Shown one piece after another: positions 11,531 to 15,396 of a stretch of DNA of 33,587 nucleotides (position 1 is its first letter; every line of letters begins with the position of its first letter). The stretch is from Kitasatospora phosalacinea (lineage in GTDB: Bacteria; Actinomycetota; Actinomycetes; Streptomycetales; Streptomycetaceae). The stretch spans positions 1-33,587 of the forward strand of contig NZ_JNYE01000087.1 in assembly GCF_000717185.1 (NCBI RefSeq), written 5' to 3'. The notes below the pieces were generated by a model. It saw only the letters and a list, made by a program, of their open reading frames with translations, was not told the DNA's origin and searched no databases. Position numbers and translations under genes: made by a program.

Positions 11531-12028
11531 TCAGGCCAGCAGCTCGGCGAGCGCCCGGTCGCAGTCCAGGTGGCGCAGCTCCTGCCCCTCGGGCACCACC
11601 AGGTAGCTGTGCCACAGGAAGCGGCGCAGCTCGGTGCGGTCGAACTGGAGCAGGGCGACGCCGTCGGGGGAGCGCAGTTCGACCACGGTGCGCTGGCCGA
11701 GTCCGGGGCGGACGTGCACGTCGCCCTCGCCGCTGGGCAGGTCCAGTCCGGAGGCGAGCAGCTGACGGGCGAACACCCACTCGACCCCGTCGGCCGGGGC
11801 GGCACCGGCCGGGTCGGCCGGGTCGGTCAGGACGTCCGCGCCCGCGTCCGGCAGGTCGGCGCCCGGCTCGGCGGCGTCCAGCGCGTACTCGGCGGGGAAG
11901 ACCATCCGGACCGCCAGCGGGTCGTCGGCGCGGTACCGCAGGGTGACCCGCAGCAGCGCGGAGCGGTGGGTGCTGACGATCAGCCGGGCGTGCGCGGTCT
12001 GCTCGACCGGCTCGGGCGCTGAGAACAC
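11531..12028 (-). CDS. SsgA-like sporulation/cell-division regulator (first copy)
   Basis: 165 residues of the SsgA/SsgB (SALP) family. Recognisable family blocks are LRVTLRYRADDPLAVRMVF, VEWVFARQLLASGL, GEGDVHVRP, VVELRSPDGVALLQF and the ending DCDRALAELLA. The family is usually ~135-145 residues; the extra length here is an Ala/Asp/Pro insertion (~50-78) just before the VEWVFARQ block. These proteins act in the cytoplasm at division sites or in spore-wall assembly in sporulating actinomycetes, SsgB recruiting FtsZ and others controlling peptidoglycan turnover. The exact member cannot be assigned, so no symbol is given. The GTG start at 12028 has GGAGG six bases upstream. It is divergent from the sigma-factor gene at 12315 and convergent with the sortase gene. 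A second family member lies at 24767-25186. Confidence 0.9.
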   Translation of the reverse strand: MFSAPEPVEQTAHARLIVSTHRSALLRVTLRYRADDPLAVRMVFPAEYALDAAEPGADLPDAGADVLTDPADPAGAAPADGVEWVFARQLLASGLDLPSGEGDVHVRPGLGQRTVVELRSPDGVALLQFDRTELRRFLWHSYLVVPEGQELRHLDCDRALAELLA

Positions 12029-12179
12029 GGGGGTTCCTCCGGGAAGTGCGGGTGGTGAGGGCTGTGCGGATGCGACCGGAGCCGCCTCCTGTTGAAGAAG
12101 AGTCAGGAGTGGCGGGTGTGATTACGCCGGTTTTGAGCCCCCTTTAAGTGATCTGCGCCACACTCGCACGGACCAATCC

Positions 12180-12213: not shown

Positions 12214-12314
12214 GGCAGCGGCGGGGCGCCCGGGCAGGATCGCGGAAGCCGTACGGGCCCCCGCAGATCACCCGTACGGCGACCCAGGGGAGGGCCGAGA
12301 CCATCGAGGAACGA

Positions 12315-13388
12315 GTGCGGACGGCCGGGCGGACCCCGCTCGCCGCGTACACCGAGCTGTACCAGCGCCACCACCCCGGACTGCTGCGGTACGCCGGGAG
12401 CCTGACCGGCGGCGACCGCTGGCGGGCCGAGGACCTGGTCGCCGAGGCGCACCTGCGGGTGTGGCGGCGGCTCGCCGACGGGTACCGGATCGAGGACCCG
12501 CGGGCCTACCTGGCCGCCACCGTCCGGCACCTGGCGGCCACGCCGGTGCGCGAACGGGCCGCCGGGGAGCTGCCCGGGCGGGCCGCGGAGGAGGAGGCCG
12601 CCGACCCGGCGCCCCGGGTGGCCGAAACCGACCGGATGCGCGGGCTGCTCGCCCAGCTGCCCGAGCGCTGGGCGCAGGCGCTGTGGCTCTCCGAGGTGGA
12701 GGGCCTGCCGCCCGGCGAGGTCGGCGTCCGGCTCGGCGTGGGCCGCGGCGCCGCCGCCGTGCTGCTGCACCGGGCCCGCGAGGGACTGCGGCTGGCGTAC
12801 CTGCGGGCCTACCCCGGCGCCCCGCGCGACCCCGGCTGCGTCGGGCACTGGGCGGCGCTCGCCGGGCAGGCCCGCGGCCGGGCCGGGCGCCGGGTCCAGC
12901 GGCACCTGGCCGGCTGCGCCGACTGCCGGGGCCGCCTCGCGCTGCTGTGCCGGGTCAACCGGCGGCTGGCCGCCCTGGCGGGCAGCGCGGCGGCCCTGCT
13001 GGCCGCCCTGGTCCTCGCCCCGTTCGGCGAACCGGGCCGCGCGGACGCCGCCGGGGCGGGCTGCGAGGTGCGCTACCGGGTCACCAGCGAGAAGGACGAC
13101 CGGTTCAACGCCCGGATCGCCCTGCGCAACACCTCCGACCGCCCGGTGACCGGCTGGACGCTGCGCTGGGCGCTGCCCGCGGGCGAGCACCTGCTGGCGG
13201 CCTGGCCGGGCACCGGCGAGGGCCACGAGGGGGCGGGCGAGGCCACCATCCGCGACGGCGGCTGGAACGCCGTCCTGCCGCCCGGCGGCTCCGCCGTCAC
13301 CGGCTTCTCCGGCAGCTGGACGCACCCGCAGCCGGTGCCGGCGGAGATCACCCTGAACGGCCGCCCGTGCCGCGTGAAGGTGTGGTGA
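12315..13388 (+). CDS. ECF-type sigma factor fused to zinc-finger, transmembrane helix and CBM2-like module
   Basis: 357 residues from the GTG at 12315 (GAGGA five bases upstream). Sigma region 2 is at ~11-75 (YQRHHPGLLRYAGSL, AEDLVAEAHLRVWRRL, DPRAYLAATVRHLA). Region 4 is at ~107-164 (LLAQLPERWAQALWLSEVEGL through LLHRAREGLRL). A zinc-finger-like anti-sigma segment follows (C175; H197-L-A-G-C201-A-D-C204), then one transmembrane helix (~217-236). The C-terminal ~105 residues match a family 2 carbohydrate-binding module: flanking Cys250 and Cys352, GWTLRW (W281), AAW (W297), GGWNAVLPPGGS (W317) and LNGRPC. The topology would put the sigma domain inside and the sugar-binding module outside. 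C-terminally extended actinobacterial ECF groups with carbohydrate-binding domains are known; no separate anti-sigma gene is adjacent, so it probably regulates itself. The ligand is inferred (cellulose or chitin). Confidence 0.85.
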   Translation: MRTAGRTPLAAYTELYQRHHPGLLRYAGSLTGGDRWRAEDLVAEAHLRVWRRLADGYRIEDPRAYLAATVRHLAATPVRERAAGELPGRAAEEEAADPAPRVAETDRMRGLLAQLPERWAQALWLSEVEGLPPGEVGVRLGVGRGAAAVLLHRAREGLRLAYLRAYPGAPRDPGCVGHWAALAGQARGRAGRRVQRHLAGCADCRGRLALLCRVNRRLAALAGSAAALLAALVLAPFGEPGRADAAGAGCEVRYRVTSEKDDRFNARIALRNTSDRPVTGWTLRWALPAGEHLLAAWPGTGEGHEGAGEATIRDGGWNAVLPPGGSAVTGFSGSWTHPQPVPAEITLNGRPCRVKVW

Positions 13389-13548: not shown

Positions 13549-15396
13549 GTGACTACCGCCGCCTCCTCCGCGATGTCCCCGCTGTTCTCGCACGCCGACA
13601 GCACCCACCCCCGCCCGACCGGCACCTCCGCTGCCGCGCACCTCTCCCCGGCCTTCCCGGGCCGCGCCCCCTGGGGCACCGCCGCCAGCCTCCGGGCCTG
13701 GCAGCAGGGAGCACTGGACCTGTACGTCGAGAAGCAGCCCCGGGACTTCCTGGCGGTCGCCACCCCGGGCGCCGGGAAGACCACCTTCGCCCTGACCCTG
13801 GCGTCCTACCTGCTGCACAACCACCTGGTGCAGCAGGTCACCGTGGTCGCCCCCACCGAGCACCTGAAGAAGCAGTGGGCCGAGGCCGCCGCCCGGATAG
13901 GGATCCGGCTCGACCCGGCGTACTCCTCGGGCCCGCTGTCCAAGGACTACCAGGGCATCGTGATCACGTACGCGGGCGTCGGGGTCAACCCGATGCTGCA
14001 CCGCAACCGGACCGAGGCCCGCAAGACGCTGGTGATCATGGACGAGATCCACCACGCCGGCGACTCCAAGTCCTGGGGCGAGGCCTGCTTCGAGGCCTTC
14101 GAGCCGGCCACCCGCCGGCTCGCCCTCACCGGCACCCCGTTCCGCTCGGACACCAACCCGATCCCGTTCGTCCAGTACGAGGCCGGGAGCGACGGCATCC
14201 GCAAGTCGGTCGCCGACTACACCTACGGCTACGGGCACGCGCTGGCCGACCACGTGGTCCGCCCGGTGATCTTCCTCAGCTACTCCGGCAACATGCGCTG
14301 GCGCACCAAGGCCGGCGACGAGCTGGAGGCCCGGCTCGGCGAGCCGATGACCAAGGACCTGATCGCCCAGGCCTGGCGCACCGCGCTCTCCCCGCAGGGC
14401 GAGTGGATCCCGGCCGTGCTGCAGGCCGCCGACCGGCGGCTGACCGAGGTCCGCAAGGGCATCCCGGACGCGGGCGGCCTGGTGATCGCCACCGACCAGA
14501 CGGTGGCCCGCGCGTACGCCAAGATGCTGCGCGAGATCACCGGCGAGAAGGTCGCCCTGGTGCTCTCCGACGAGGCCGAGGCCTCCCAGCGGATCTCCGA
14601 CTACGCCGAGGGCACCTCGCGCTGGATGGTGGCCGTCCGGATGGTCTCCGAGGGCGTCGACGTGCCCCGGCTGTGCGTCGGGGTGTACGCCACCTCGATC
14701 TCCACCCCGCTGTTCTTCGCCCAGGCCGTCGGCCGCTTCGTGCGCGCCCGCAAGCGCGGCGAGACCGCCTCGGTGTTCCTGCCGACCATCCCGATGCTGC
14801 TCGGCTTCGCCAACGAGATGGAGCTGCAGCGCGACCACGTCCTGGACCGGCCCAAGAAGGAGGGCGAGGGCCTCTTCGACGAGGAGGACCGGCTGCTCGC
14901 CGAGGCCGAGAAGGCCAACGACGGGGCGGACACCGGCACCGAGGAGTTCTCCTACGAGGCGCTGGGCAGCGACGCGGTCTTCGACCGGGTGCTGTACAAC
15001 GCCATGGAGTTCGGCATGCAGGCGCACCCCGGCAGCGAGGAGGAGGAGGACTACCTCGGCATCCCGGGCCTGCTCGAACCCGACCAGGTGCAGATGCTGC
15101 TGCAGAAGCGCCAGCACCGGCAGATCCAGCGCTCCAAGGCCAGGCCCGCCGAGGAGGCCGACCTGCTCGAACTCCCGGCCGAGGAGCGCCCGGTGGTCAC
15201 CCACCAGGAGCTGCGCGAGCTGCGCAAGGAGCTGAACGCGCTGGTCGCCGCCTGGCACCACCGCACCGAGCAGCCGCACGGCAGCATCCACAACGAGCTG
15301 CGCCGCCAGTGCGGCGGGCCGCTCACCGCGCAGGCCACCGCCAACCAGCTGAAGGCGCGGATCGGCCGGATCCGGGAGTGGGCGAACCAGGGCTGA
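13549..15396 (+). CDS. DEAD/DEAH-family SF2 helicase
   Basis: 615 residues from the GTG at 13549 (GGAGA just upstream; an in-frame ATG at 13573 is an alternative). Superfamily 2 motifs are in order: a glutamine-type LRAWQQGALD, Walker A TPGAGKTT (~residues 72-79), Walker B DEIHHAG (~165-171), motif III LTGTPFRS (~193-200), an LVIATDQ strand starting the second RecA domain, SEGVDVPRLCVGVYAT, and motif VI QAVGRFVRARKRGE (~392-405). A charged C-terminal region (~450-615) without a recognised domain follows. It is an ATP-dependent DNA or RNA remodelling enzyme by family; the substrate is unknown. The resemblance to the type III restriction/UvrB helicase-like branch is in the core only, and no methylase or nuclease gene is nearby. 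A TAGGCT at 13461-13466 is a possible -10 element. Confidence 0.88.
   Translation: MTTAASSAMSPLFSHADSTHPRPTGTSAAAHLSPAFPGRAPWGTAASLRAWQQGALDLYVEKQPRDFLAVATPGAGKTTFALTLASYLLHNHLVQQVTVVAPTEHLKKQWAEAAARIGIRLDPAYSSGPLSKDYQGIVITYAGVGVNPMLHRNRTEARKTLVIMDEIHHAGDSKSWGEACFEAFEPATRRLALTGTPFRSDTNPIPFVQYEAGSDGIRKSVADYTYGYGHALADHVVRPVIFLSYSGNMRWRTKAGDELEARLGEPMTKDLIAQAWRTALSPQGEWIPAVLQAADRRLTEVRKGIPDAGGLVIATDQTVARAYAKMLREITGEKVALVLSDEAEASQRISDYAEGTSRWMVAVRMVSEGVDVPRLCVGVYATSISTPLFFAQAVGRFVRARKRGETASVFLPTIPMLLGFANEMELQRDHVLDRPKKEGEGLFDEEDRLLAEAEKANDGADTGTEEFSYEALGSDAVFDRVLYNAMEFGMQAHPGSEEEEDYLGIPGLLEPDQVQMLLQKRQHRQIQRSKARPAEEADLLELPAEERPVVTHQELRELRKELNALVAAWHHRTEQPHGSIHNELRRQCGGPLTAQATANQLKARIGRIREWANQG

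Follow-up and report, generated by a model that had tools for sequence, protein, structure and literature searches.

A compact, linker-less ECF sigma factor carrying a CBM2 module beside an ssgA-like gene of Kitasatospora phosalacinea

In the 33,587-nucleotide stretch of Kitasatospora phosalacinea DNA that was analysed (assembly GCF_000717185.1, contig NZ_JNYE01000087.1, positions 1 to 33,587; hereafter the window), an open reading frame (ORF) at 12315..13388 of the forward strand starts with GTG and encodes a protein of 357 amino acids which combines an extracytoplasmic function (ECF) sigma factor, a finger resembling those of zinc-associated anti-sigma (ZAS) domains, a single membrane helix and a carbohydrate-binding module of family 2 (CBM2). 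A chance origin of this ORF is excluded, because a 97% identical counterpart is annotated in K. phosalacinea and the C-terminal part of the structural model fits solved CBM2 structures. The overall plan is not new; the protein is a compact, CBM2-bearing, linker-less, one-helix variant of a known actinobacterial receptor type, and particular to it are the CBM2, the missing linker and the one-helix form.

A preceding sequence-only reading had placed sigma regions 2 and 4, an HxxxCxxC anti-sigma-like finger, one transmembrane helix and a CBM2-like domain with both cysteines in one polypeptide, and all of these were recovered, the ORF being exactly 12315-13388 on the forward strand. Sigma-70 region 2 (residues 15-81; 12357..12557, +), found also by fold matches of the model, and region 4 (Sigma70_r4_2, residues 107-156; 12633..12782, +) match PF04542 and PF08281 above cut-off. 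TIGR02937 matches with 48.4 bits (cut-off 42.9), and the protein has regions 2 and 4 only, which is the domain content of ECF sigma factors. The ligands of ZAS domains, or class I anti-sigma factors, follow the pattern C-x(n)-H-x3-C-x2-C, with which C175 and H197-x3-C201-x2-C204 of the finger (residues 175-208; 12837..12938, +; zf-HC2 match and conservation) agree. In a 14-row alignment C175 is invariant and H197, C201 and C204 are nearly so (at least 90%); they are the presumed ligands, and binding and inhibition of the sigma regions are putative. The sole hydrophobic segment, residues 218-236 (12966..13022, +; mean Kyte-Doolittle value 2.13), has arginines on its N side and is predicted from hydropathy to be a membrane helix, the sequence being compatible with a single pass with the N-terminus inside and the C-terminus outside. 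This helix could instead act as an internal signal peptide, with signal peptidase cutting at A-D-A (residues 243-245), so that the CBM2 would be shed and the sigma regions would stay membrane-held. Signal peptidase sites follow the rule AxA and, read by eye, a hydrophobic stretch and then ADA-A precede the module, an arrangement also seen in secreted CBM2 enzymes. Conservation is lacking, however, as the site reads ADP in the related genome G024 and differs in other compact relatives, and we consider such shedding very improbable.

The CBM2 occupies residues 250-352 (13062..13370, +), as delimited by Pfam CBM_2, the fold of the model and alignment. A profile check set beforehand for these residues detected the module over profile positions 1-101 of 101 (E 1.3e-19; score 70.8 bits, cut-off 24), and both CBM2 cysteines, C250 and C352, are present. 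The CBM2a of a Cellulomonas fimi enzyme (1exg/6qfs), to which the window module is 36-37% identical, has the same fold and both cysteines and differs in its first binding tryptophan, at the position of which K260 (13092-13094) stands in the window protein; the loss of this surface tryptophan had been correctly noted from the sequence. W297 (13203-13205) and W317 (13263-13265) align with the other two of three aromatic positions, which we take to be the cellulose-binding surface aromatics of type A CBM2, so the window protein has two of the three surface aromatics of that type, while W281 aligns with what is presumably the core tryptophan and not a surface one. Helix and CBM2 are joined by a tether of 13 residues (13023..13061, +; alignment and hydropathy) that lacks any Pro-rich stretch. 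Fully stretched, 13 residues span about 4 nm and 117 residues about 35 nm; as the Gram-positive wall is tens of nm thick, the compact CBM2 should sit within the wall, which argues against the sensing of an external insoluble polymer.

A long form of the same sigma-ZAS-CBM2 plan is represented by P0014 (metagenome, 496 aa) and P0016 (Kitasatospora, 509 aa), which are 60-62% identical to the window protein over the sigma-finger part. Both have two hydrophobic segments, a spacer (117 and 118 residues, respectively) and all three binding tryptophans, whereas the window protein has one segment, 13 residues and two tryptophans. Among nine compact proteins (P0001-P0004, P0006, P0007 and P0009-P0011, with the truncated P0005 and P0008 excluded) the first tryptophan is kept in none, the second in four and the third in three. 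By comparison, the best 12 of the genome's 22 CBM2 matches all keep the first two tryptophans and have Trp or Tyr as the third. A shortened copy in K. terrestris (P0017; locus L035, genome G067) consists of a sigma part joined to a partial CBM2 and is devoid of the finger motif and the helix.

A homologue search and a search with a long-form profile, in each of which about 8,000 candidates were scored, gave the same nine CBM2 carriers, among 108 homologues according to a precomputed Pfam column and among the 120 matches listed of 472 to the profile; seven are named Kitasatospora, one is labelled 'Streptomyces sp. TLI_171' and one is the metagenome protein P0014. Across 70 genomes of the genus the gene was matched at E 1e-40 in nine and at a looser threshold in a tenth, G014. 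The DEAD/ResIII-type helicase gene downstream (13549..15396, +), with one match at E 1e-200 per genome in 70/70 genomes, served as syntenic anchor, and upstream of it sigma or CBM2 matches were found in 11 of the 69 other genomes and none in 58, among them G042, which retains an apparent scar of the gene's last codons; five of the 69 gave no ssgA-like match, which leaves the ssgA-helicase gap undefined there. In the 12 closest genomes (helicase at least 95% identical, window genome included) the ORF is full-length in six (the window genome, G024, G027, G041, G008 and G036), damaged in three and a relic in three (G009, G023 and G042), the damage being a stop inside the CBM2 in G011 and G012 and a broken frame in the sigma part of G014. 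Half of the closest genomes have thus lost the gene or carry it in damaged form. In G036 (L034), where the ORF is still open, about 20 residues of the CBM2 are duplicated in tandem. Because of the 13-residue tether, the stepwise loss of aromatics and the six of 12 closest genomes that are without a full-length copy, compactness looks like reduction more than design; from the sequences we infer a change from long to compact, in a tree whose root is not fixed.

These data bear on the proposal, made from the sequence, of a transmembrane polysaccharide sensor that controls transcription, which is plausible by analogy with ECF52/ECF53 sigma factors; a healthy external sensor is disfavoured by the shortness of the tether, the loss of binding aromatics and the number of close genomes in which a full-length copy is missing. 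Such a sensor would bind cellulose, chitin or xylan through its CBM2, release the sigma factor and switch on degradative genes, and a CBM2 that has its whole fold and two of the three aromatics would suit it, as would the 22 CBM2 matches of a genome well equipped for polysaccharides. Yet the tether is unlikely to cross the wall, the first binding tryptophan is gone in nine of nine compact proteins, and the mean number of CBM2 matches is 15.8 in the six genomes that have a full-length ORF and likewise in the six that do not (window copy included). A link to cellulase content was accordingly abandoned, and the independence of genome CBM2 content from presence of the gene is consistent with no sensing of an external insoluble polymer; we regard a working external sensor as unlikely. 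Sensing of self-made cellulose was likewise considered and is unsupported, as PF09118, which we take to be the GlxA-type domain, is absent from the window genome and occurs in three of the 12 close genomes (one of six with a full-length ORF and two of six without). Cellulose synthesis by Streptomyces CslA-GlxA is described in PMC11022532.

The start region (12287..12317, +) was compared in a nine-row alignment. A Shine-Dalgarno-like run, GGGGAGGG, is followed by GAG at 12297, a column with GTG or ATG in three of the nine genomes: it reads ATG in G008, GTG in G011 and G012, GAG in the window, G024 and G027, GAC in G041 and ATC in G036 and G014. The GTG at 12315, found in six of the nine rows and preceded by GAGG in the window, is likely the present start codon.

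The CBM2 of the window protein is 89, 83, 73 and 56% identical to those of G024, G027, G041 and G008, while enzyme CBM2s of the same genomes reach 92-94, 87-92, 81-95 and 86% (three modules per genome, a single one in G008); the sigma factor's CBM2 therefore changes faster, most clearly against G008. This lower amino-acid identity is a firmer sign of fast change than codon positions. Third-position shares of changes in the CBM2 (0.39, 0.47, 0.36 and 0.29 against G024, G027, G041 and G008) show no excess, and the enzyme-CBM2 controls, with 0.31-0.54 over ten rows, are mostly without excess too, control pairs of two similar neighbouring enzyme genes giving 0.31 (on 13 changes) and 0.45. Only the G008 share falls, barely, beneath the control range. 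Relaxed selection on the CBM2 is hence not claimed from codon positions, as the enzyme control removes most of the near-neutral look. In the sigma part third-position excess appears in four of four window pairs (shares 0.50-0.60, p 0.03 to 5e-5). Ratios of nonsynonymous to synonymous rates (dN/dS) by the Nei-Gojobori method (NG86), which is crude for GC-rich genes, are 0.57-1.27 for the CBM2 against 0.20-0.46 for the sigma part in window pairs; over ten pairs they are 0.20-0.65 for the sigma part, 0.26-0.72 for sortase, ssgA-like and mprF genes and 0.11-0.17 for the helicase.

One may ask from this whether the gene is turning into a pseudogene with no selected function, in the window genome too, as would be suggested by the damaged or relic copies in six of 12 close genomes, by GAG in place of the upstream ATG or GTG start and by a CBM2 that diverges faster than enzyme CBM2s. 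Speaking against it are the third-position excess of the sigma part in every window pair, sigma dN/dS values within the range of the sortase, ssgA-like and mprF genes though above the helicase, an ORF that is intact in the window, in G024 and in K. phosalacinea, and CBM2 codon-position shares that largely overlap those of enzyme CBM2s, so that we give this outcome only a small chance.

The divergent neighbour is an SsgA-family sporulation/cell-division gene (11531..12028, -; PF04686, 1.1e-26), which is conserved in most loci read. The order mprF-like, sortase, ssgA-like (opposite strand), sigma-CBM2 and helicase was found in the window and in seven of eight other loci compared, the exception being G067, where the sortase gene lies farther away. 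Of 19 loci read outside Kitasatospora, 17 likewise have a divergent ssgA-like gene next to the sigma gene, and the association is therefore old. Loss of the spacer might have changed the input, and a CBM2 kept no more than about 4 nm from the membrane might act, beside this SsgA-family gene, as a sensor of wall status which reads in-wall glycans or soluble fragments and not an external insoluble polymer; so specific a role seems to us quite improbable.

Three further observations concern the locus itself. Between the ssgA-like and sigma genes lies a Crp-type site, GTGATCTGCGCCAC, at 12148-12161. PMC10033298 quotes the Streptomyces coelicolor Crp pattern as GTG(N)6GNCAC, which has 14 matches across the window, and the site at 12148-12161 is matched at the same place in 12 of the 12 closest genomes, in G042 in the reverse-motif form. 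Since it persists even where the sigma gene is lost, it may serve the ssgA-like gene. The ssgA-helicase gap of the four gene-less Kitasatospora genomes that were read (L070, L071, L074 and L104) holds a Fic/Doc-like ORF; that of L070 (5194-5888), the only one profiled, belongs to the Doc toxin family and has an Arc-like ORF alongside. The mprF-like match is split in two pieces in L031 (G012) and L032 (G008), which may reflect a broken frame or sequence divergence.

Taken together, we favour on balance a membrane-tethered sigma factor of the ECF52/ECF53 type that would be inhibited in cis and freed by proteolysis, in a reduced Kitasatospora form with an eroding CBM2 face and wall-proximal or weak sensing. 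The ZAS-like finger and the membrane helix would hold the sigma regions inactive, and regulated proteolysis would cut the protein and free them, steps which are proposed because of the analogy with SCO4117 and IutY as described in PMC5826349 and PMC8999054. A site-2-type protease family is present in the genome, as it is in 14 of 14 control genomes. A longer ancestor would have lost its Pro-rich spacer and second hydrophobic segment, its binding face now eroding, and the CBM2 on its 13-residue tether inside the wall would most likely read wall-proximal or soluble glycans, or retain little sensing. Several points weigh against this reading. By codon positions this CBM2 cannot be told apart from those of enzymes, and the module retains two of three binding aromatics and both cysteines. 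The zf-HC2 match at residues 180-205 scores 19.6 bits, under the Pfam cut-off of 22.2, and the AlphaFold2 model is weak overall (predicted local distance difference test, pLDDT, 67.5; predicted TM-score 0.35; residues 217-247 below pLDDT 50), so that a contact between sigma regions and finger is only putative. Moreover, G011 and G012 keep sigma, finger and helix open despite a cut CBM2, and the sigma-finger-helix part may work without it. The series seen in Kitasatospora runs from the long CBM2 form through compact and damaged copies to relics, all but the long form at a single syntenic site, and constitutes a natural set for addressing the role of the module; a test of binding and activation would be better made with the long forms P0014 and P0016, the window protein being the natural short-tether comparison.

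Extended actinobacterial ECF groups with carbohydrate-binding domains, which the sequence-only reading had mentioned, are indeed in print: PMC5826349, PMC8999054 and PMC10766802 describe the ECF52/ECF53 plan of zinc finger, membrane helices and carbohydrate-binding module. ECF53 proteins have a C-terminal fusion to a zinc finger and one or two helices, some members of both groups have predicted glycosyl hydrolase or carbohydrate-binding domains (PMC8999054; PMC10766802), and these predicted carbohydrate domains await experimental validation (PMC10766802). ECF53 resembles the window protein by published description only. The accessible part of PMC7406223 does not mention ECF52 or ECF53, and the compact CBM2 form was not found in the open-licence literature searched (ECF with carbohydrate-binding, ECF52, ECF53, SCO4117, Kitasatospora).

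The ECF52 protein SCO4117 of S. coelicolor unites sigma factor, zinc finger, membrane helix and C-terminal carbohydrate module in one polypeptide (PMC5826349; PMC8999054), and differs by its Pro-rich spacer, by a smart00776 module in place of CBM2 and by its location downstream of atrA (PMC5826349). The window protein likewise has finger, helix and carbohydrate module C-terminal to the sigma regions, the finger being under the Pfam cut-off with its presumed ligands conserved, and is without the Pro-rich extension between helix and module. Orthology with SCO4117 was rejected, as the gene is flanked by ssgA-like and helicase genes and the genome has a separate candidate of SCO4117 type, L015 (3-1517, -, on contig C172), beside a TetR gene. 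The contig ends within the Pro/Thr repeat tail of L015, ahead of any C-terminal module, and the L015 finger gives no Pfam match though HxxxCxxC is visible in its sequence. The TetR neighbour matches an NCBIfam ScbR-type model with 44.9 against a cut-off of 150, and it is at most putatively 'AtrA-like'. In a tree in which L015, as the genome's own ECF52 candidate, stood in for the absent SCO4117, it is set off from the group of the window protein by a 100/100 branch, with warnings for long branches and composition. The window protein groups there with other Kitasatospora forms and with an ssgA-linked family of Streptomycetaceae sigma-ZAS proteins (e.g. P0021 and P0028). No CBM2 was found in that family in the precomputed Pfam column, with which scans of P0028 and P0023 agree; its members have a long Pro-rich tail, and two hydrophobic segments in the two that were measured (P0023 and P0028), and they share with the window protein roughly 50% identity in the sigma-finger part and the divergent ssgA-like neighbour.
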